Positions 7,108 to 41,633 of a stretch of DNA of 64,000 nucleotides are shown in pieces. Within the stretch, counting starts at the first letter, position 1. Every line of letters starts with the position of its first letter. The stretch lies in the NCBI GenBank assembly GCA_022539475.1, contig VCMS01000022.1, positions 434,001 to 498,000 on the forward strand, given 5' to 3'. The notes under the pieces are model-generated. The model was not told the origin of the DNA and ran no database searches. It was given only the letters and a program-made list of their open reading frames with translations. Origin of the DNA: Gracilaria domingensis (Eukaryota; Rhodophyta; Florideophyceae; Gracilariales; Gracilariaceae). A program made the translations under genes and the position numbers.

Positions 7108-8652
7108 CTATGATACACTCCAGTCTGCAATCTTACGCGCCGCAGTTTTGTCGACACTTGCCTGTACGGCGTCAAACCCAATATTGACATCTTGCATCTC
7201 AATATCTCTGTTATCGCTCAGGGCATTAAGAGCAGCTCTCCGACAGGCGCCCTGAATATCTGCTCCGGTGAAGCCCTCAGATTTCTCCGCCCGAACACAG
7301 ACCTGCTCAGCAACTCTTTCTTTCAAATTCATGCGCTTTGCAAAGACGATGCCAATTTGTCTTCGCCCTTCAGAGTTGGGCAACGGAACAAGAACACATC
7401 TGTCAATTCTTCCTGGACGCAAAAGCGATTTAGCTACCATCCATGGAGCATTCGTAGCGGCGACTACTTTTACGCCTGAAGAAAGTTTATCCAAAATGGT
7501 GCCCAATACAGCAGGCAGTCTCTTCATGGAAGGCGCAAAGAGCGCATCAATCTCATCTAGAAAGATCAGTGCAGGTGGGTCTGCAGCTGCTTGTTCAAAA
7601 TGAAAACGCAGTAGACGCTCCGACTCGCCAACTGCTCCCCGAGCTAGCTCCGCCGCCTGCAAAGGTATTATACGAGTATTGGTGGCACTCGCTGCCTCTC
7701 TGACGAGTGAAGTCTTTCCCGTTCCAGGCGCCCCGTACAACAGCAAAGCGCTTGGGGTGCGAACGCCTAGTTTTCTTAATCGTTCTGAGAGCACGATAGG
7801 ATGATACAAGAGTCGCTTCAAATACTTTTCCGCTTCTTCTGCTCCGGGAAGTACAGAACGGACTTGTTGCCAGGACTTTGCCATCCGTTGCTTATCTACT
7901 TTAGGACGCTGTTCACGAGTTACACGGGACGGCAAAGAAAGCACAAGGTCACAGGCGCCGACAACATTTGGGTGCAAGTCGCTGCGGCTGTTAGCCAAAA
8001 GGAGCAAGACAACACCAGCCATATCCCTGAGAGAATGACGAAACGCCAAAAAGATAGCCGCATACCGATTGAGAAGGGGAGCAAACGTAAGGTGAGCATC
8101 ATCGATCACGAGGACTGATGGGCTAGCAGCAATCGCAGCATACGCATAATACATGAGGGATTTCAGCAGTGCTGGAGCTTCGCTAACGCTAAGGTGAGTG
8201 GGCTGTAACCGAATGTAAGTGGCGCCACAACGCCAAACCGCATGGGCAGCAACAGACGATTTTCCACCGCCCGGATCAGACAGCAGAAGGATCGCCCTAG
8301 GTGAGAATGGCTCCATCGCCAACGCCCTACGCAGCATTGCGTGTAACGGCGGCGAGGTGTCGACATCAAGAGAGAAGGGCGAGTTCAATGAAGGCGGTAT
8401 AGGTGGTAGTAAGTATGTCTTCGTGTCATCGGTTGTGTGTAGTGCATCGCCGGGCTCGCAGCGCACGACGATGACGGAAAATGTTCGCGGAAGAAAGGGT
8501 AGCTCATACGGTGTTGCTGGGGGCGGCAACTCGCTTCGCAAGAAATAATCGCGGAGAAGGGCAGCGCTCGCCGTTCGTGCGGCGCGAGATTCCCACGTTA
8601 AGCGAAGTACAAGCGACTTCGCAGCTGGAGGCGATGATGCATCTTGAGTCAT
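7108..8652 (-). CDS. Compact divergent double-AAA ATPase (Cdc48/AFG2/PEX1 class)
   Basis: 514 aa, ATG start. There are two AAA modules. D1 has Walker A GGGKS (128-132) and a Walker B VLVIDDAH (180-187) in which the catalytic Glu is replaced. It lacks a clear SRH, so D1 probably binds but may not hydrolyse ATP. D2 is canonical: GAPGTGKTS (307-315), ALIFLDEIDALF (361-372), sensor 1 VVAATNAPW and LLRPGRIDR with both Arg fingers (R412, R415), then a C-terminal helical lid with GFTGADIQGACRRAAL. D2 sequence (GVRTPSALLLYGAPG, RIDRCVLVPLPN) resembles AFG2/SPATA5-type remodelers of ribosome maturation, but PEX1/PEX6 cannot be excluded. Usual relatives have 750-1200 aa; here the N-domain is at most ~110 residues. 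Convergent with QNG1 and divergent from HisG. Confidence 0.7.
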   Translation of the reverse strand: MTQDASSPPAAKSLVLRLTWESRAARTASAALLRDYFLRSELPPPATPYELPFLPRTFSVIVVRCEPGDALHTTDDTKTYLLPPIPPSLNSPFSLDVDTSPPLHAMLRRALAMEPFSPRAILLLSDPGGGKSSVAAHAVWRCGATYIRLQPTHLSVSEAPALLKSLMYYAYAAIAASPSVLVIDDAHLTFAPLLNRYAAIFLAFRHSLRDMAGVVLLLLANSRSDLHPNVVGACDLVLSLPSRVTREQRPKVDKQRMAKSWQQVRSVLPGAEEAEKYLKRLLYHPIVLSERLRKLGVRTPSALLLYGAPGTGKTSLVREAASATNTRIIPLQAAELARGAVGESERLLRFHFEQAAADPPALIFLDEIDALFAPSMKRLPAVLGTILDKLSSGVKVVAATNAPWMVAKSLLRPGRIDRCVLVPLPNSEGRRQIGIVFAKRMNLKERVAEQVCVRAEKSEGFTGADIQGACRRAALNALSDNRDIEMQDVNIGFDAVQASVDKTAARKIADWSVS

Positions 8653-9066: not shown

Positions 9067-10266
9067 ATGTGTGCTGCCTTTCAAGCACCTCTACCGCTCT
9101 TGTTTCGAGCTGCGTCAACTCCATTTGTTAATATTTTCTCCGTTCCTCAAAGGCACGTCTCACCCTGTCCCCGACTTATACAATGTCAACCTCTTATGCT
9201 TGCTCCAGAGGATCGCACAAAGATTAGGCTTGCAATCCCATCAAAGGGCGATATCCTGAATTCAACCAAACAATTGCTGTCTGAGATTGGAATGGATGTT
9301 CAGCTTCACAACCCACGTCAATACGTAGCTGCGCTCCGTGGTTCTGACCTGGAGGTCTGGCTGCAGCGACCCGCCGACATTGTGCGCAAAGTCCGAGACG
9401 GTCATTGTGATTTGGGCATCGTCGGCCATGATCTCGTTGCTGAGCACGGTGGTACCAAAAAGTCTGTCGTAGCCGTGCATGATCGGCTTGGGTACGGTGA
9501 TTGCCGTTTGTCTGTTGGTGTGCCTATGGCCTGGACCGATTGCGTCGATATGAGCGGTTTGAGAAAACGAGCGTCTATGAATGAGCTTCGAATAGCAACA
9601 AAGTATATTAACGAGACGCGACGGTTTTTGCTCTTCCACGGGATTGACAACTATCGCGTTATCAAAATGGATGGTGCCTTGGAAGCATCGACTCAGATGG
9701 GTACTGCAGATTGTATCATCGACCTTGTTTCTTCCGGCACAACTCTTCGTGAGAATCTTCTCAAAGAGATTACAGGTGGTACTTTGCTTTCTTCCTCCAT
9801 GCAGCTCGTCACAAATCGCAGTCACATATCAGACGAAGGCGCGTTTGGAGAGCGTCTCCGAAGTATCACACAAGAGCTCGTGGAGCGAATTGAAGCCCAC
9901 CTGCTTGGAAAGAACAACTACAACATCATCGCCAATATTAGAGGATCAAGCATGGTTGACGTCAGCCGTCGCCTAGCGTCGCAGAGCGATCTGCGAGGAA
10001 TGGACGGCCCAACTGTCAGTCCGGTGGTACCTCCAGCCGATGCAGATGAGGGGATGTACGCCATCAGTATTGTTCTTCCGAAAGAACAGCTGTATTCAGC
10101 GATTCAACAACTGCGCAGTGTGGGTGGTTCTGGAGTAACCGTGTTGCCAGTGGCTTTTCTGTTTCCGCAACATTGCAAGAGATGGACTACTCTAATGGAA
10201 GACGTCGGCATGGGTTCGACACCTTTTTCTGAACCGGTCCAGGTGCAAAGCGTTGCGCCCTCCTGA
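9067..10266 (+). CDS. hisG: ATP phosphoribosyltransferase, plastid-targeted (histidine biosynthesis step 1)
   Basis: Condenses ATP with PRPP to phosphoribosyl-ATP, the committed and His-inhibited step. Start set at the ATG at 9067 (399 aa); the open frame runs back to a TTG at 9031. Residues 1-45 are basic/hydrophobic without acids (MCAAFQAPLPLLFRAAS...), consistent with a plastid transit peptide with a Phe at position 5. The catalytic core starts at about 52 (KIRLAIPSKGDI). The HisG signature lies at 206-227: EAS..MGTADCIIDLVSSGTTL. After about 310 a linker leads to the ACT-like C-terminal regulatory domain of long-form HisG (YAISIVLPKEQLYSAIQQL). The long form is a homohexamer without HisZ. 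No intron. Confidence 0.93.
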   Translation: MCAAFQAPLPLLFRAASTPFVNIFSVPQRHVSPCPRLIQCQPLMLAPEDRTKIRLAIPSKGDILNSTKQLLSEIGMDVQLHNPRQYVAALRGSDLEVWLQRPADIVRKVRDGHCDLGIVGHDLVAEHGGTKKSVVAVHDRLGYGDCRLSVGVPMAWTDCVDMSGLRKRASMNELRIATKYINETRRFLLFHGIDNYRVIKMDGALEASTQMGTADCIIDLVSSGTTLRENLLKEITGGTLLSSSMQLVTNRSHISDEGAFGERLRSITQELVERIEAHLLGKNNYNIIANIRGSSMVDVSRRLASQSDLRGMDGPTVSPVVPPADADEGMYAISIVLPKEQLYSAIQQLRSVGGSGVTVLPVAFLFPQHCKRWTTLMEDVGMGSTPFSEPVQVQSVAPS

Positions 10267-14488: not shown

Positions 14489-15610
14489 TCACAAGAGGAC
14501 GGATCGCAGTTCACCTGGCACATACTCGAATAGTGGGGTACAAAAGGTGCATAGCTGATACAAAGCGCGAAGAGGAGCCAAGAGCGAATGGGCGGTAATC
14601 TTCTCCACCGACTTTGTGTAAGTAGTGACTCGAATACCATTCACAACAAGGTCACCCTGCAGAGTTTGCGGATTGTACAAACCGTGTGCGATACGTACAC
14701 TGACTTCCAATACGCGAGTGGTTGAACCATCAGCCAAGTACAGCCAATCTCCCCGTTTGACGGCAGCCGGCACGCAAAGACCGTTAGCGTAGAGATAATG
14801 TCCCGCGGTTAGCATTAACGACTGCTCAACATGCTCTGTACGCAGCGAAATGAACGTGTACTGTACACCTTGTTGCTGGTGTGTGAACATGAATACGGGG
14901 CTGTACTCGTGATCTCCAACAAGAAGCATGTCCCCAACAGCAATCTGGTCCATTCGAAGCAAGCTGCCATCCTGAAGCTCGACGAGCGAGTGCGCTGGGA
15001 AGCACACATTATCGTCGTCGTCCTGCGGGGAGGCAATTGGTGCGCTTCCAGTCGGGGATGCTGTTTCAGTTTCAGTTGCGGCCGCAGTTACCGTTGGGGT
15101 CTCAGACGGTGTGGTTGTTGCTGGTGTGGGCGTTGTAGCAGCCAATTGCGACGGGGAGGAAGACGGTTTGGCAGAGGGAGAAGGAGAAGGCAATTGCTCC
15201 GTTTCAGCCCGGCAGCGCGGAGCATTCTTCGCACCATCCTCCTCAGCTACGCCCGGATGACTGAGCATATTGAGCCTGACCTCGGTAGGATCACTCTCAC
15301 TCCACAGACAGCATGGGTCACCCAATTCTTCGCCATTGCTGACACCGTCGTCATCCGAGTCCTTTTCGCATAATTCCTTCGTCCATCGCAAGCCCGCCTC
15401 CTTGAAGTCCAGTCCGAACGGGTTGCGCTCGGCGCCCGGAAAACAATTCTCGTGTCCAAGATAGCGGCACGTGATTCCCGTGCCCTCTTTGCCATGCGCG
15501 TCGCCATTCGGAATGCGCCTCAAGAATTCCGGATGCGCAGCGGCTTGCGCCGCTAGCGCCAGTGCGACGATTACCAAACCGCGAAAGCGTGTCACAAGCC
15601 CGCCGCTCAT
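14489..15610 (-). CDS. Secreted temptin-like domain fused to Hedgehog-type Hint (Hog) domain
   Basis: 373 aa from the ATG at 15610. The open frame extends upstream through 185 codons of very GC-rich, Arg/Ala-rich promoter sequence, which I exclude. Residues 1-25 are a signal peptide (hydrophobic LVIVALALAAQAAA). Residues 26-118 resemble temptin-like Cys-rich domains: HPEFLRRIPNG, NPFGLDFKEAG, WTKELCEKDSDDDG, SNGEELGDPCC. A Pro/Ser/Thr linker (139-198) leads to a Hint domain with Cys203 at its first residue (CFPAHSLVEL), L.DGSLLRMDQIAVGD, LTAGHYL (T268, H271), and the Hedgehog-like tail VVNGIRVTTYT...AHSLLAPLRAL. These domains cleave themselves at the Cys. The residue before Cys203 is Val, not the usual Gly. 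Ligand and acceptor are unknown. Confidence 0.85.
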   Translation of the reverse strand: MSGGLVTRFRGLVIVALALAAQAAAHPEFLRRIPNGDAHGKEGTGITCRYLGHENCFPGAERNPFGLDFKEAGLRWTKELCEKDSDDDGVSNGEELGDPCCLWSESDPTEVRLNMLSHPGVAEEDGAKNAPRCRAETEQLPSPSPSAKPSSSPSQLAATTPTPATTTPSETPTVTAAATETETASPTGSAPIASPQDDDDNVCFPAHSLVELQDGSLLRMDQIAVGDMLLVGDHEYSPVFMFTHQQQGVQYTFISLRTEHVEQSLMLTAGHYLYANGLCVPAAVKRGDWLYLADGSTTRVLEVSVRIAHGLYNPQTLQGDLVVNGIRVTTYTKSVEKITAHSLLAPLRALYQLCTFCTPLFEYVPGELRSVLL

Positions 15611-18299: not shown

Positions 18300-19236
18300 G
18301 ACGGGGGGAAGGGAGGGGGGGGGGGGAGAGGGGGGGGGGGGGGGGGGGGGCTGATAAGGGGTAGGGGTGGGGGGGTGGGTGTAGCGGAGCGGAGGAAGGC
18401 GGGGGCAAGTGTCGGCGCGTTTCGGTGGAGCGGGGGCGCGGGCGTTACGAAGCGCGCGGTGGCGCGGACAAGCGCGAGACGACGCGCGGCGCGCGCGTGG
18501 AGTGTGCGCGCGGGCGCGACGACGGCACACGGCGGAAGGGCGCACTGCGCGAAGCGTTTACGGGAGCAGCAGCGCGAGCTCGTGCCGCGCACACGACGGC
18601 GGGCGGTGCTGTTGCGGGGCGGCGCGACGAACGGCGAGCAGCGGCGGAGGCGGCGGGAGGAAGCGACGGCGCGGCGGCGGCACGTGCACGCGACGCGGCG
18701 CGCGCGCGCGCCTTTTTAAGCCCGCGGGTGTGACGCGCGCGCCGCCGCGCCAAGCGAAAGACAGCGCGTCCTCAGCCGGCCGCGCCCGGCGTGCAAGCCC
18801 GCGCCGTACACGCCGCGCGGCGCGCGCGTGCACGCGCGTGCGCGCGGCGCGCGCGTGGCCGCCACATGGGCGACCTGGGTGATGTGGCCACGGCGGCGCG
18901 CGCGTTGCGCCACGGAGAGTGGCGGACTGAATGGCGGCGAGATGTGCGCCAATGGGCGCGCGTCGTGCAAGCGCGCGCTGCATCGCGCGCCGCACAAGTT
19001 TGCATGCGGCGCGCGTGCTGCGCGTGCGCTGCCCTCACAGCTGTGTGTGGGCGGCGCGTGTGGCCGAAGCAATCGCGCCGCGCGCGTGCGCGGACCACCT
19101 TTCGGCAGATAAGCTTAGATATCGCCCGCGTCGCGTTCCTCCGCGCCGTCTCGGCCGCGACGTGAACACAGCTGCCCCGTCCGAGTGTCGATGCGCTCCA
19201 TCAGCACCGGCCTCTGCCTCCCCACCCCCCGTCGCC
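18300..19236. promoter_or_regulatory. Divergent GC-rich promoter of bHLH factor and plastid sigma factor
   Basis: 937 bp, very rich in CpG and CGCG blocks (about 18440-19120), separating two divergent genes. The bHLH side carries a long G-run tract on the plus strand. The sigma side ends in a pyrimidine-rich leader (CCTCTGCCTCCCCACCCCCC) just before the ATG at 19237. Confidence 0.55.
18303..18377. repeat. Poly-G tract including a 22-G run
   Basis: Plus strand is nearly all G with few A, C and T, including 22 consecutive G at 18329-18350. It lies 4-78 bp upstream of the bHLH ATG, so the mRNA leader would be poly-C. G-quadruplex formation on the template strand is plausible, and length polymorphism is likely. 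Confidence 0.85.
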
Positions 19237-20703
19237 ATGAGCGCCTCTGTCGCGTTTGCCTCGCCGCCGCTGTCGTTGACCTCGCCCCCGCTGCGTGTCG
19301 CCGTCGCACATGATACGCGCATCAACTCCACCGTCGCCGTGCTTACGCCGCGCCCGCCCAGACGGCGCGTCAGGAGAGTTGTGCGATCGGGTACGGTGCG
19401 AACGCGGCGTGCCGCTTCGACACCGCCCGCAATTCGCGTGCAGGAGGTGCGTATGCCTGATGTAGCCGCGAAGAATGCCACGTCCGTTGGCACGCGTCAA
19501 TCAAAGCGGGGCGCACGAGGAGCTGATGGTGACGCTGTACAGCAGCCTTCCCCGGATGAAGTGCTTGAGCGCGAAAAGAAGCAGAAGAGCTTTTTGCAAG
19601 AGCAACTGGAGCTCAGACAGAAGGAGAACAGTGCTCGAAAGCAGGCAACTACCTACAAGTCGCGCCGCACCCAGAAGCGTATGCGCTCACCGCTTCGTCC
19701 CCGCACGCGCAACGTGTCTAACGCGTTGAAGGATACCTTCCAGATGTACATGGAGGAGATTTCGAGATCCGACCTCTTGGGACAGGCTCAGGTCATTGAG
19801 CTGGCTGCTCACATCAAGAAGTCGGTTAAAGTGGAGGATGAGCAACGCTTGCTCGAGGCTAAGCTGCATCGGAGACCTTCTGTCGATGAGCTTGCGCAGC
19901 ATCTTCGACTTGGGTCTGCCGACGTGCGCCGTATCATATTAAGAGGCACTGCTGCTAAGAATACGCTTGTGTCCGCCAATCTGCGGCTCGTAACCAGTGT
20001 GGCCAGAAAGGTGGCATCATCCAAGACCGACAATGGGTCGGGCATTGCGTTGGATGATATGGTCCAGGAGGGGAGCGTTGGTCTACTTCGCGCCGCTGAA
20101 AAGTTTGACGCGTCGAGAGGCTACAGGTTTTCTACCTACGCTACATGGTGGATTCGCGCCTATGTCATGAGATGTATTACAACTCAGAGTCGCAGCATCA
20201 AGGTACCCAGCACCATTGTTGACGAATATGCGCGCATTCGGAAAGAGTACTCGCAGTTGCGCGAGGAGGGTTTGGCCAGACCGAGCGAAGAGCAGGTAGC
20301 AAAAGCGCTGGGAATTACGGCGGCCAAGCTACGCTTCGTCGTCAATGTGGTCACCCGCAAACCTCTTTCACTGGATCTCACCCTCGGTCCGGCAGATGAC
20401 CCTTCCGGCTCACGTTCACTGGGAGAAATTGTGGAGGGAGATGATCATGTGGAGGAACGATTAGTGCAAACGTATCAAAAGCAAGAATTGGACTTGGCGC
20501 TGCGTCAGTGCCTGCGACCTCTGGAACGAGCCGTAATTCGACTGCGTTTTGGGCTCGAAGACGGGCAACCTCGAACGCTACGGGAGACCGGCGAGTTGTT
20601 GGGCCTTTCGAAGGAGAGGATTCGTCAACTGATATTCCGCGCTTTGCCAAAGATGAAAACCCCGGAGATTCAGCGAATGCTTACCGATGCTGCATCTCGT
20701 TAA
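19237..20703 (+). CDS. Plastid RNA polymerase sigma-70 factor
   Basis: 488 aa from the ATG at 19237 (MSASVAFASPPLSL); the open frame upstream of it is GC-island sequence. Residues 1-75 form an acid-poor, Ser/Pro/Arg-rich transit peptide. The sigma-70 core begins with region 1.2 (DTFQMYMEEISRSDLLG), then region 2 (about 244-320): NLRLVTSVARKVA, LDDMVQEGSVGLLRAAEKFD, GYRFSTYATWWIRAYVMRCI. Region 3 follows (ARIRKEYSQL...), and region 4 (about 423-484) has RLRFGLEDGQPRTLRETGEL and the helix-turn-helix LGLSKERIRQLIFRAL. It directs the bacterial-type RNA polymerase of the plastid. Which SIG paralogue it is cannot be told. Convergent with FolC. Confidence 0.93.
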   Translation: MSASVAFASPPLSLTSPPLRVAVAHDTRINSTVAVLTPRPPRRRVRRVVRSGTVRTRRAASTPPAIRVQEVRMPDVAAKNATSVGTRQSKRGARGADGDAVQQPSPDEVLEREKKQKSFLQEQLELRQKENSARKQATTYKSRRTQKRMRSPLRPRTRNVSNALKDTFQMYMEEISRSDLLGQAQVIELAAHIKKSVKVEDEQRLLEAKLHRRPSVDELAQHLRLGSADVRRIILRGTAAKNTLVSANLRLVTSVARKVASSKTDNGSGIALDDMVQEGSVGLLRAAEKFDASRGYRFSTYATWWIRAYVMRCITTQSRSIKVPSTIVDEYARIRKEYSQLREEGLARPSEEQVAKALGITAAKLRFVVNVVTRKPLSLDLTLGPADDPSGSRSLGEIVEGDDHVEERLVQTYQKQELDLALRQCLRPLERAVIRLRFGLEDGQPRTLRETGELLGLSKERIRQLIFRALPKMKTPEIQRMLTDAASR

Positions 20704-21140: not shown

Positions 21141-22475
21141 TTACTGTTGTATATGCAGCTCTCTTAGTCTTGGTCGCAATCTTCCTGCCAAATAGAACGA
21201 CCCGATGACCACCAATGTAGTTCTCTTTGCGGACGCTTCTTGGATTGCTTCATGCAGAGCCTCCTCGGCGACGTCGACGACTGTGCTCGATACGTTCGCT
21301 TTCTGCAAGCTTCGCCCTAGCTCAGCAGATGAAACATATTTTTCACTTTGTCCTGCAGATGTTGCAAAAACCTTTGCTGCTTTAGAAGCAACTACTTTGC
21401 ATATTGCGTCACGGTTCTTTTCTTCTCCAAGACCGAGTACGACAACCGGCTTTCGCTCATTGTGAGCCTCTAGCAGCAGCTGACCCACACTTTCTTTTGT
21501 GTGAGCACCGTCGAGAATAACTGAAACCATCGATCCGCCGCACGCAATTTGAAAACGTTCCGCTCGAGCTGGCAGTTGTGCCAGTGCTGAGATAGCGAGC
21601 TGACGTGGCAGCATCAGCTCCCCACTCAGATGGGGGCTGCCCTCAAGAAGAGCAACTTGTTCAAGTGCTTTCCGGGCCAATTGTAGGTTTCGATCAAGCA
21701 ATGACCAGCTTGGAGCATGCGGGCAGAAGTGAACTGTTGCGGGCGGTGACACTCTCGAAGCTTCTGCGGTAAATACGTGTGCTAGTTCATGATCTTCTGA
21801 GAGACCACAGATACAGTGCGATGATGGGGCTATGATCCCTGCCTTCTCGTATGCGATGTTTTCCAGAGCAGGGCCGATGATGTCTGCGTGTTCTAATTGA
21901 ATGTTTGTGATGACGCTAACTGGCGCAGATAGAACGTTTGTGGAGTCTAGACGCCCCCCTATTCCTACTTCCACAGCAGCCCACTTCACTTTGCTATAGT
22001 GGAAACTGAGCAACCCAGTAGCAGAGATAACGTCAAACCAAGTCGCTTCTTGTATCAATGGTGGCCTTTCCCTAGCGTCAAGGACTTCTTCCAGTGATCT
22101 TTTAAGCAGTTCGTCACCAATTGGAACCCCGTTGACTCTTATACGTTCATTCACCTCTTCAACGTGAGGGCTGGTGTATGTTCCCACTGGTGCGTCCACG
22201 AATGGCGCGTTGCGCAAACCTGCGGCGATCAAAGTAGCTGCGGATCCCTTTCCTTTAGAACCAGAGATATGAACAGCATTGAACGAGTTTTGCGGATTTC
22301 CAATACGACCAAGAAGTTTCTGTGCTGGTACTGCAGATACCCTCATCAAACGCTCACCATCACGACTTTTACGACGACGAGTTTCCCAATCAACTAGATT
22401 TTCAAGGCGATGGAGCAACTTCCCAAGCTCAGAAGAGTGCTTCTTGGCGCCTTCGAAAGGCCGTATGAAACTCAT
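21141..22475 (-). CDS. folC: Folylpolyglutamate synthase / dihydrofolate synthase
   Basis: 444 aa, ATG start, Mur-ligase family. It adds Glu to dihydropteroate or folates with ATP. P-loop ISGSKGKGSAAT (70-81) has Ser-Lys in place of the usual Thr-Asn. The folate-binding loop is TSPHVEEVNERIRVNG (101-116). Central-domain motifs are AAVEVGIGGRLDSTNV and ITNIQLEHADIIG; the C-terminal domain has VILDGAHTKESV and VVLGLGEEKNRD. The N-terminus has about 65 residues before the P-loop, some 20-25 more than bacterial FolC; basic but with acids, so targeting is unclear. The length is close to bacterial FolC, not to the longer animal FPGS. No intron. Confidence 0.92.
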   Translation of the reverse strand: MSFIRPFEGAKKHSSELGKLLHRLENLVDWETRRRKSRDGERLMRVSAVPAQKLLGRIGNPQNSFNAVHISGSKGKGSAATLIAAGLRNAPFVDAPVGTYTSPHVEEVNERIRVNGVPIGDELLKRSLEEVLDARERPPLIQEATWFDVISATGLLSFHYSKVKWAAVEVGIGGRLDSTNVLSAPVSVITNIQLEHADIIGPALENIAYEKAGIIAPSSHCICGLSEDHELAHVFTAEASRVSPPATVHFCPHAPSWSLLDRNLQLARKALEQVALLEGSPHLSGELMLPRQLAISALAQLPARAERFQIACGGSMVSVILDGAHTKESVGQLLLEAHNERKPVVVLGLGEEKNRDAICKVVASKAAKVFATSAGQSEKYVSSAELGRSLQKANVSSTVVDVAEEALHEAIQEASAKRTTLVVIGSFYLAGRLRPRLRELHIQQ

Positions 22476-40070: not shown

Positions 40071-41633
40071 TCAAGCTCGCGCCCACGTCTCCACCAATCG
40101 ACGAACCCCTTCCATCGTGTTCTTCTCTAATGATCTTCTTATCCACTTCGCTGTCTTGGACTTCTCTCGCATCTCCTCGAGCTGCTTGCTCAGAGAAACG
40201 CTTGCGATTAAGGCATCGACTGACTTTCTTGATCTTTGTGTGTCAAACACCAACTCATTAGGATGGTGAAGTTTGACGTATTCCTTCATCTCTTTCAGCA
40301 TTTTACGCACGCTATTGATCCAGGAGCGATGCAAGCGTGAAACGTATGACTCGTCGGTGCACACGTCCTTTTCTAGCCTTCCCAAATACAGAAGGGTGAT
40401 GTTCTCCACGTCAATGATATATCCCACGGGAGACATCTTTTGAACTGTTGCTGTGCACCACAGCAAGCAGTTCACGTATTCCCGGAATGCTTGACAATGT
40501 CGGTAGAATTTGTCGTCTTCGGGGACGCTATCGAGAGTGGACGCCAGTGGACCTAACTCATGTTGCACCGATACGAGAAGCATTCGCAACGCAGCCTCCA
40601 TGTCCGTTCTTGGCCGTGTTCTGTTGGAAGCAGTCTCGATCATCTTTGCCATTTCTTCGTATGTGCCCTGGGTGTATCCGCTAACCGCAGGTAGCACCCC
40701 CCCAAGCTCCTTCGAAAGTAAAATAAACTCAGTCAAACCACTGTGCATCAACTGATAGAAATCGCCAATGGGGTGAGAATCTTTGCGCATAACACGCTTT
40801 GCTCTACGGTATCCGAGTGGCGTAGAGCCCTGAGCGTAATTCCATCTCAGACCAGCCGGGTGTTCCTTTTCTACATATTTAACCAGCGCTTCCATGACTG
40901 CGTTTAACGCTTCCGCAAAGTCGCTGTGCACTGGGTTACAACCCAGATCTATGTACCGCGATAAGATATCTTCCGCAAGACTGTTGACGACGGTCTTATA
41001 ATCCTTGACATGTTTCAGAGGAGTTGGGGCTACAACCCAGCCCAGTGCAGCTGCGGCGTCTGAAACAGCCATTGTATGATTGTGCAGGGGACTACGGGCG
41101 TCGATGTCGTATTTCAACTCCGCGGCATCAGCACTCTTATCAATGAGATCTTCACATTCGGCCTTAAAGACTTCCGGATTGGATGGTTTTGCCATTTTGG
41201 AGGCTCTGGTTACAAGTGCTCCTTCAGCCTTGATACTGGCCTCAAAAAGGTTTGTCTGTTCAAGGATAATTCCACACGGTGGTCCAAACTCTTTACCAAG
41301 CAAGCTGATTTGTTGTGCAGCCTTCTTGAGTTGCTGAATTGGGGAATCAAGTACCTTGAGGAAGAGCTCTCCCGGATCATAGTCAATAACTTGTGCTTGT
41401 ATATGCGATCGGCCGGTTGTTACAACTTTGGGAAGCGATTCGGCAATGTTCTCGACTCGAACCAGACTAGCTTCTAAGGCGTTGTTGATGGCGCGTTCAT
41501 TCCTGAAAGTGCGGATCTGTAGAGGTGGTAGAGAGTTTCCTTTGAGCTTACTTCTGACAGTAAATTCCTCCAAAGACCGAAGCTTGTGCTCCAAAATTTG
41601 GAGCGCGCCTTCTGGATCAGCCACTGCGGCCAT
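40071..41633 (-). CDS. Protein with two tandem CAP (cyclase-associated protein) N-terminal domains, no CARP domain
   Basis: 520 aa from the ATG at 41633 (the frame extends two codons to a TTG). The N-terminus has a short coiled oligomerisation-like segment (LQILEHKLRSLEEF). Residues about 95-266 are a CAP-N helical-folded domain, with the hallmark ALGWVVAPTPLKHVKDY and KYVEKEHPAGLRWN. Residues about 290-465 repeat the pattern: DFYQLMHSGLTEFILLSKEL, then LLWCTATVQKMSPVGYI at the GWV position, then MKEYVKLHHPNELVFD at the end. CAP-N binds actin-cofilin and recycles actin. The usual Pro-rich, WH2 and beta-helix CARP domains are absent; a basic C-terminal tail ends the protein. Function in actin turnover is inferred. 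Confidence 0.75.
   Translation of the reverse strand: MAAVADPEGALQILEHKLRSLEEFTVRSKLKGNSLPPLQIRTFRNERAINNALEASLVRVENIAESLPKVVTTGRSHIQAQVIDYDPGELFLKVLDSPIQQLKKAAQQISLLGKEFGPPCGIILEQTNLFEASIKAEGALVTRASKMAKPSNPEVFKAECEDLIDKSADAAELKYDIDARSPLHNHTMAVSDAAAALGWVVAPTPLKHVKDYKTVVNSLAEDILSRYIDLGCNPVHSDFAEALNAVMEALVKYVEKEHPAGLRWNYAQGSTPLGYRRAKRVMRKDSHPIGDFYQLMHSGLTEFILLSKELGGVLPAVSGYTQGTYEEMAKMIETASNRTRPRTDMEAALRMLLVSVQHELGPLASTLDSVPEDDKFYRHCQAFREYVNCLLWCTATVQKMSPVGYIIDVENITLLYLGRLEKDVCTDESYVSRLHRSWINSVRKMLKEMKEYVKLHHPNELVFDTQRSRKSVDALIASVSLSKQLEEMREKSKTAKWIRRSLEKNTMEGVRRLVETWARA

Follow-up and report, generated by a model that had tools for sequence, protein, structure and literature searches.

Non-Hedgehog Hog proteins of red algae and protists, as described by Burglin in 2008, consist of a secreted, often cysteine-bearing N-terminal part followed by a Hint domain with the Hog motifs J and K (PMC2362128). 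In the red-algal representatives the cysteine of motif J is changed to Ser, Thr or Asp, and six Hog fragments were listed for Gracilaria changii; distinct other N-terminal domains appear, in the portion of that paper available, only in GmGIN1 and in the choanoflagellate Hoglet. The Cyanidiales possess multigene Hog families, with up to 17 genes (the number in Cyanidioschyzon), in which a T/P/A-rich linker connects an N-terminal domain to the Hint domain (PMC9812998, Cho 2023; PMC13353863, Plant Cell 2026). These genes are largely subtelomeric, include combinations with kelch (and trefoil) domains, and are mostly haploid-expressed in Cyanidiophyceae (PMC13353863); a temptin pairing is absent from the excerpts of the two papers, which as to mechanism go no further than suggesting that lipid modification may give these proteins a role at the matrix or membrane. 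Hog families of red algae, like the fusion of kelch to Hog, have been published before. Hedgehog proteins (Sonic hedgehog, Drosophila Hh) combine a signal peptide, an N-terminal part, a Hint domain and the first SRR helix, and were described as unique in becoming covalently joined to cholesterol (PMC7242414). Temptin is known in molluscs as a water-borne component, other settings in the literature being a biomineralisation role and fusion to a monooxygenase (PMC2762978, PMC10075465). The latter, a lophotrochozoan temptin-DBH monooxygenase hybrid, resembles the protein described here in that a temptin domain is fused to a secreted module; a Hint domain is not mentioned in the available text of PMC2762978.

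The temptin-Hog gene of Gracilaria domingensis is located on the minus strand at positions 14489-15610 of the window, i.e. the whole stretch of 64,000 nucleotides analysed, and its translation of 373 amino acids plus stop is uninterrupted. The single open reading frame comprises a signal-like start, a Temptin_C domain, a linker, a Hedgehog-type Hint domain and a first SRR helix. The frame remains open 5' of the ATG at 15610, as far as 16165, so that this start is a probable one, chosen for the signal-like N-terminus. In the Pfam search only Temptin_C and Hint were above the cut-off, MGC-24 also being listed far below it; with E values of 3.6e-30 and 3.2e-22, respectively, the two calls are not due to chance. 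The preliminary description had recognised the single frame, the signal peptide, the cysteine-rich temptin-like domain, the PST linker, the Hint domain with its N-terminal Cys, TxxH and the tail AHSLLAPLRAL, and the layout of Hedgehog with an unrelated N-terminal part. All of these were recovered, the signal peptide as a signal-like stretch in hydropathy only (residues 1-25, positions 15536..15610, 3.15 over 10 residues). Read from the DNA, the temptin-Hog is a real gene, which joins the non-Hedgehog Hogs as a new variant. Five annotated neighbours within the window, an AAA ATPase (7108-8652, minus strand), HisG (9067-10266, plus), a sigma-70 factor (18931-20703, plus), a Mur-ligase-like protein (21141-22475, minus) and a CAP_N protein (40071-41633, minus), have no evident connection to the Hog.

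The temptin part (residues 24-121, positions 15248..15541) matched PF24784 over positions 2-98 of the 98 in the profile, with 104.8 bits at a cut-off of 27, and is thus a full-length Temptin_C domain. It contains cysteines at 48, 56, 81, 100 and 101, and the calcium-loop motif DSDDDG (residues 84-89, positions 15344..15361), of which DSDDD at 84-88 agrees with the temptin signature DSDXD, a Ca2+ motif present in snail temptins (PMC10075465). In the whole genome it was the single match to the Temptin_C profile at E<=10, and no solved structural relative was found by sequence, the best match (E 0.84) being an unrelated protein. The linker (residues 122-202, positions 15005..15247) is composed of 81 residues with a high content of A, T, P and S; its last six, DDDDNV, directly precede Cys203.

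The Hint domain (residues 203-339, positions 14594..15004) matched PF01079 over residues 201-357 with 79.6 bits at a cut-off of 29.7; the HMM check proposed in the preliminary description was therefore positive for both domains. A profile built from the family matched solved Hedgehog domains (6td6 at E 1.5e-26, 1at0 at 5.3e-22, 7e2i at 8e-21, and also 6tyy), and two Hedgehog chains were matched through motif K. Matches of the same profile to inteins were partial and began at 1.9e-4, so that the Hedgehog chains match far better than the intein Hints. Compared alone to the structures, the 373-residue sequence matched 7e2i, a Sonic hedgehog structure, at 2.7e-7, and its match to Drosophila Hh was weak. 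A single-sequence AlphaFold2 model of the temptin-Hog had a mean pLDDT of 39.8, and the assignment of the Hint fold rests on the profile matches to 6td6, 6tyy, 1at0 and 7e2i and not on this model.

An alignment of 37 Hint domains of the genome, the temptin-Hog included, has a mean column identity of 33% and only five invariant columns: Cys203 (positions 15002..15004), which corresponds to the catalytic Cys1 of the N-S acyl shift, His244 (14879..14881), His271 of the TxxH block B (T268-A-G-H271, 14798..14809), Gly310 and Gly319. The Thr place of TxxH is occupied by Thr in 20 rows and Ser in 17. In the loop of motif J (SCYA), the temptin-Hog reads TTYT with Thr330-Tyr331-Thr332 (14615..14623), Cys143 being replaced by Thr, one of the replacements described for the red-algal Hogs of PMC2362128, and Tyr364 kept. 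Family-wide the Cys143 place holds Thr in 26 rows, Cys in five and other residues in six, and every one of the 37 rows has an aromatic residue at the Tyr364 place. The residue preceding Cys1 is Ala in 13 rows, Val in nine, Ser in five, Gly in one and others in nine, twelve different residues in all. The Val before the cysteine, to which the preliminary description had drawn attention, is indeed present (Val202) and the Gly typical of Hedgehog is missing; within the family, however, Val at this place is not odd.

The invariant His244 occupies the place of Asp303 of Drosophila Hh (Asp46). In 6td6 its counterpart is the Asp of FMDR, according to both the single protein and the family profile, and in 1at0 it is this Asp according to the profile; in 6tyy both alignments placed it at the His of FMHR. 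The structure 6tyy we take to be that of the Asp46His mutant of Drosophila Hh. A study by Zhao of 2019 reportedly bears the title 'General Base Swap Preserves Activity', and Asp46His chemistry is, to our knowledge, a laboratory swap only. In Hedgehog, Asp46 activates the sterol hydroxyl (PMC9163320, PMC13060885); it has no direct counterpart in inteins, and Drosophila Hh with Asp46His is active and accepts a wider range of sterols (PMC8529194). The text of PMC2362128, in its available portion and figures apart, does not mention an invariant His at this place. A place without an intein counterpart that is filled by an invariant His in 37 of 37 domains argues that the second step, ligation, is under selection.

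The SRR-like tail (residues 340-373, positions 14492..14593, minus strand) is made up of the motif K helix AHSLLAPLRALYQL at residues 340-350 and a short end without HWY. The places of motifs J and K, both of which aligned to Hedgehog, and the human residue numbers were assigned from the alignment of the family profile with Hedgehog. In the first SRR helix the equivalents of human His374, Pro379 and Arg381 are kept in 25, 35 and 35 of the 37 tails, respectively, and jointly in 23, among which is the temptin-Hog. A second SRR helix was not recognisable: HWY occurs in none of the 37 tails, and HW in three others than that of the temptin-Hog. In human SHH the HWY helix is required for cholesterolysis (PMC7242414, PMC7906309), and a mutant lacking the second helix cleaves and ligates no cholesterol (PMC7242414). 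Phe380, likewise required in human SHH (PMC7906309), is Leu in the temptin-Hog as read on the alignment. Tails measured from motif K have a median of 40 residues (n=37). Since the loop between the human SRR helices is dispensable (PMC7242414), short tails by themselves are no argument against function.

In summary of these comparisons, the temptin-Hog shares with Hedgehog the order of its parts and Cys1, TxxH and the Tyr364 place, and differs from bona fide Hedgehog in that the Hedge domain, the Gly at -1 and the HWY helix are absent and Asp46 and Cys143 are replaced by His and Thr, respectively. Like a Hog, it has a Hint domain with Cys1 and TxxH, motifs J and K, and an N-terminal part that appears secreted by hydropathy.

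The genome (77.9 Mb, 680 contigs) gave 44 Hint matches. Of these, 42 were flagged as exceeding the Pfam cut-off, including one that did so only together with its neighbours in frame. The 37-member set comprises the Hint frames open from Cys1 to the stop. The seven matches left aside were a duplicate contig end (L020, sharing its end with L022), two matches regarded as a single frame-broken gene (L035), three fragmentary ones (L041-L043) and L040, which is interrupted by a stop. Thirty-six other Hint proteins were scanned with Pfam, namely L035 and all aligned paralogues but L037 (35 of 36), with L020 also outside the scan; Hint was above the cut-off in all. A survey for the same fusion, carried out in this genome, thus yielded 36 other open Hogs and no second temptin domain.

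By the hydropathy heuristic, a signal-like start was found in 28 of the 37 N-terminal parts as compared to 13% of shuffled ones, and the nine lacking it include at least one, L002, that is preceded by coding frames. In 25 of the 37, at least three of the 12 residues preceding Cys1 are acidic, versus 20% at random places, and in 27 of the 37 the last 60 residues before Cys1 consist to at least 60% of S, T, P, D, E, A and G.

A named N-terminal part above the cut-off was present in six of the 36 scanned proteins: fasciclin in L011, L012 and L016, a protease of the trypsin type in L017 (445-2046, plus strand; E 1e-37), kelch in L006, and a copper type II monooxygenase of the PHM/DBH type, apparently in several exons, in L002 (1486-3482, minus strand). 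With temptin, five named kinds are found here, compared to the two proteins with distinct domains in PMC2362128. Frames upstream of L002 hold more of both monooxygenase domains, and the C-terminal monooxygenase domain was found in the genome at L002 only (two matches in neighbouring frames). The single genome copies of temptin and copper monooxygenase both reside on Hogs, as two separate proteins, in contrast to the lophotrochozoan hybrid. The genome search for fasciclin gave four matches, of which two lie on Hogs and two on contigs that lack any Hint match; adding L012, which this search missed, three of the five fasciclin genes seen in all are on Hogs. As two of the five are not, not every candidate surface protein uses a Hog. 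The secreted protease of L017 may be lipid-anchored through self-processing.

The other 30 scanned proteins had no named N-terminal part above the cut-off; L036 showed sub-threshold pentapeptide matches, and in L005 the frame extends for no more than 39 residues ahead of Cys1. Eleven cysteine-bearing N-terminal parts without a Pfam name (L003, L007, L009, L010, L013, L014, L022, L023, L027, L034 and L035) were chained by pairwise phmmer and represent a candidate new secreted family, some of the links possibly reflecting in part the low-complexity linkers, as whole N-terminal parts were compared. That of L014 also matched two fasciclin N-terminal parts and, at 9.6e-4, the temptin-Hog. L018 (in L047) and L025 have in common a long Cys-rich N-terminal domain that has no Pfam match (phmmer E 9.4e-74). 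L036, L037 and L040-L043 (contigs C126, C238, C114, C164, C121 and C380) are closely similar Hog copies, two of them open with a near-identical pentapeptide-like N-terminal part and four broken or partial; the group looks like a young branch that is duplicating and decaying. A five-row alignment (A2) found no relatives in the collections viral_contigs and genome_contigs, in which this genome is the only eukaryote.

When the 37 Hint domains were placed in a tree, four of the 34 inner branches were starred and 22 were open, the bootstrap not having settled, and the temptin-Hog fell into no strongly supported set. The eight labelled N-types required nine changes on this tree, the mean of shuffles being 11.5 and a value as low being reached in two of 200. 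The N-types are therefore partly clustered, and free exchange of N-terminal parts, which had been considered, is not supported on a tree that is mostly unresolved.

As to a lipid partner, the red-algal sterol is predominantly cholesterol (PMC10817344). According to PMC4584343 cholesterol makes up a smaller share in red algae than in the green and the brown, yet it is among the main sterols, and it is the main sterol of Solieria. GPI-anchor synthesis is reported to have been lost in ancestral red algae (PMC9812998), and a profile search of the genome for the GPI-pathway families Gpi16, Gaa1, GWT1, PIG-A and GPI2 matched none of the five. The absence is supported, yet weakly, because the controls of this search were prokaryotes, among which PIG-A was matched below the cut-off in one archaeon, and four of the five families matched nothing anywhere. 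The same method found STT3 (5.1e-90) and squalene epoxidase (E 2.4e-95) in the genome. Four matches to Patched-type proteins (E 7.4e-28), two of them with an internal stop, are too general to bear on release. In Hedgehog, the N-terminal part is a bystander and the Hint domain needs no partner enzyme (PMC13060885), an indifference that fits the requirement set by the diversity of N-terminal parts in this genome.

These data are best accommodated by a secreted non-Hedgehog Hog precursor that would cleave itself and perhaps sterylate its N-terminal part, the Hog possibly replacing a GPI anchor; we assign to this reading a probability of roughly one half. The precursor would enter the secretory path and the Hint domain would fold, whereupon Cys203 would attack the Val202-Cys203 peptide bond, aided by T268 and H271, to give a thioester. 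The SRR-like tail would hold a sterol, whose hydroxyl may then be activated by His244 at the place of the general base Asp46; this sterol, possibly cholesterol as the reported main red-algal one, would displace the thioester. The temptin domain would thus be left bearing a lipid on its C-terminal linker, and the Hog part would be discarded. Within this scheme self-cleavage is likely, and for sterylation the chances are about even. As the same device occurs on many kinds of secreted part, it is most plausibly a general tag through which surface or wall proteins would be lipidated at their C-terminus without an enzyme. The reported loss of GPI, the lack of a GPI match, the evidence on sterols and the partner-free action of Hint together suggest that the Hog may have taken the place of the lost GPI anchor, as a lipid tag that is built in at the C-terminus.

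What speaks most against a sterol partner is the absence of HWY, and Leu at the Phe380 place, Val at -1 and Thr at Cys143 of motif J point in the same direction in the temptin-Hog. The His at the Asp46 place could equally serve hydrolysis or another nucleophile. The thioester might accordingly be opened by water or a thiol, so that a soluble temptin is released as an extracellular signal or glue, as the preliminary description had imagined; the behaviour of the human SHH mutant without the second helix and the water-borne nature of temptin in molluscs would agree with this. Lipid-free release would, however, make both the invariant His at a sterol-activating place and the kept first SRR helix superfluous, and a protease site is a simpler route to the same result, for which reason we regard it as rather unlikely. 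The pheromone role proposed with it has been set aside, as only the name of a mollusc domain speaks for it and temptin is one of many N-terminal parts on the same device; the temptin part would rather be an adhesive or Ca2+-binding module tethered to membrane or wall than a free pheromone. The matrix-type character of some N-terminal parts (three fasciclin proteins and temptin) and the S/T/P-rich linkers also invite the thought that the thioester is opened by another nucleophile, such as a hydroxyl or amine group on a polymer of wall or mucilage, and that the Hog couples proteins covalently to the matrix. The missing HWY and the greater sterol tolerance of the Asp46His form (PMC8529194) could be counted in favour of such coupling, but the tail helix is conserved and aligns with the first SRR helix of Hedgehog, and nothing positive speaks for a polymer partner, which makes it improbable.

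Val at -1 and Thr for the motif J cysteine, both unlike animal Hedgehog, could be taken as signs of an inactive Hint in a protein that works uncleaved; yet Cys1 and the TxxH His are kept here and in 36 paralogues that have diverged to the mean identity given above, and the Thr place of TxxH is Thr or Ser throughout, so that the chance of inactivity is slim. That two adjacent genes were misread as a single open frame is hardly credible: the gene model comes from DNA alone and 81 low-complexity residues separate the domains, but there is no stop in frame between the ATG and the final stop, the linker style recurs in the paralogues, and 70.6-76.6% of genes in Gracilaria genomes are without introns (PMC10388701).

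With regard to novelty, no literature joining temptin with a Hint domain was found. The preliminary description knew of no function for this pairing, and none was found in the literature searched; red-algal Hog families as such had already been described. Among the matches listed, the literature contained neither the temptin-Hog pairing, nor the breadth of N-terminal modules in one genome, nor the invariant His at the Asp46 place, nor a proposal that Hog substitutes for GPI.

The family-wide pattern is a more interesting result than the single temptin-Hog gene. Thirty-seven open Hogs with varied N-terminal parts and an invariant His, in an alga group with reported cholesterol and in a genome without a GPI match, make the function of non-animal Hogs and their lipidation testable. 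Provided that they are active, protein engineers could make use of them as natural Hog domains of the His type in which twelve different residues occur at -1. It is tempting to extend the argument from this genome to red algae at large, which, lacking GPI, may use dozens of self-lipidating Hog tails with a natural His as general base as a general anchoring system; this wider proposal is tentative, and we hold the odds to be against it. If it is true, protein sterylation would be a general means of anchoring outside animals and not a peculiarity of Hedgehog.
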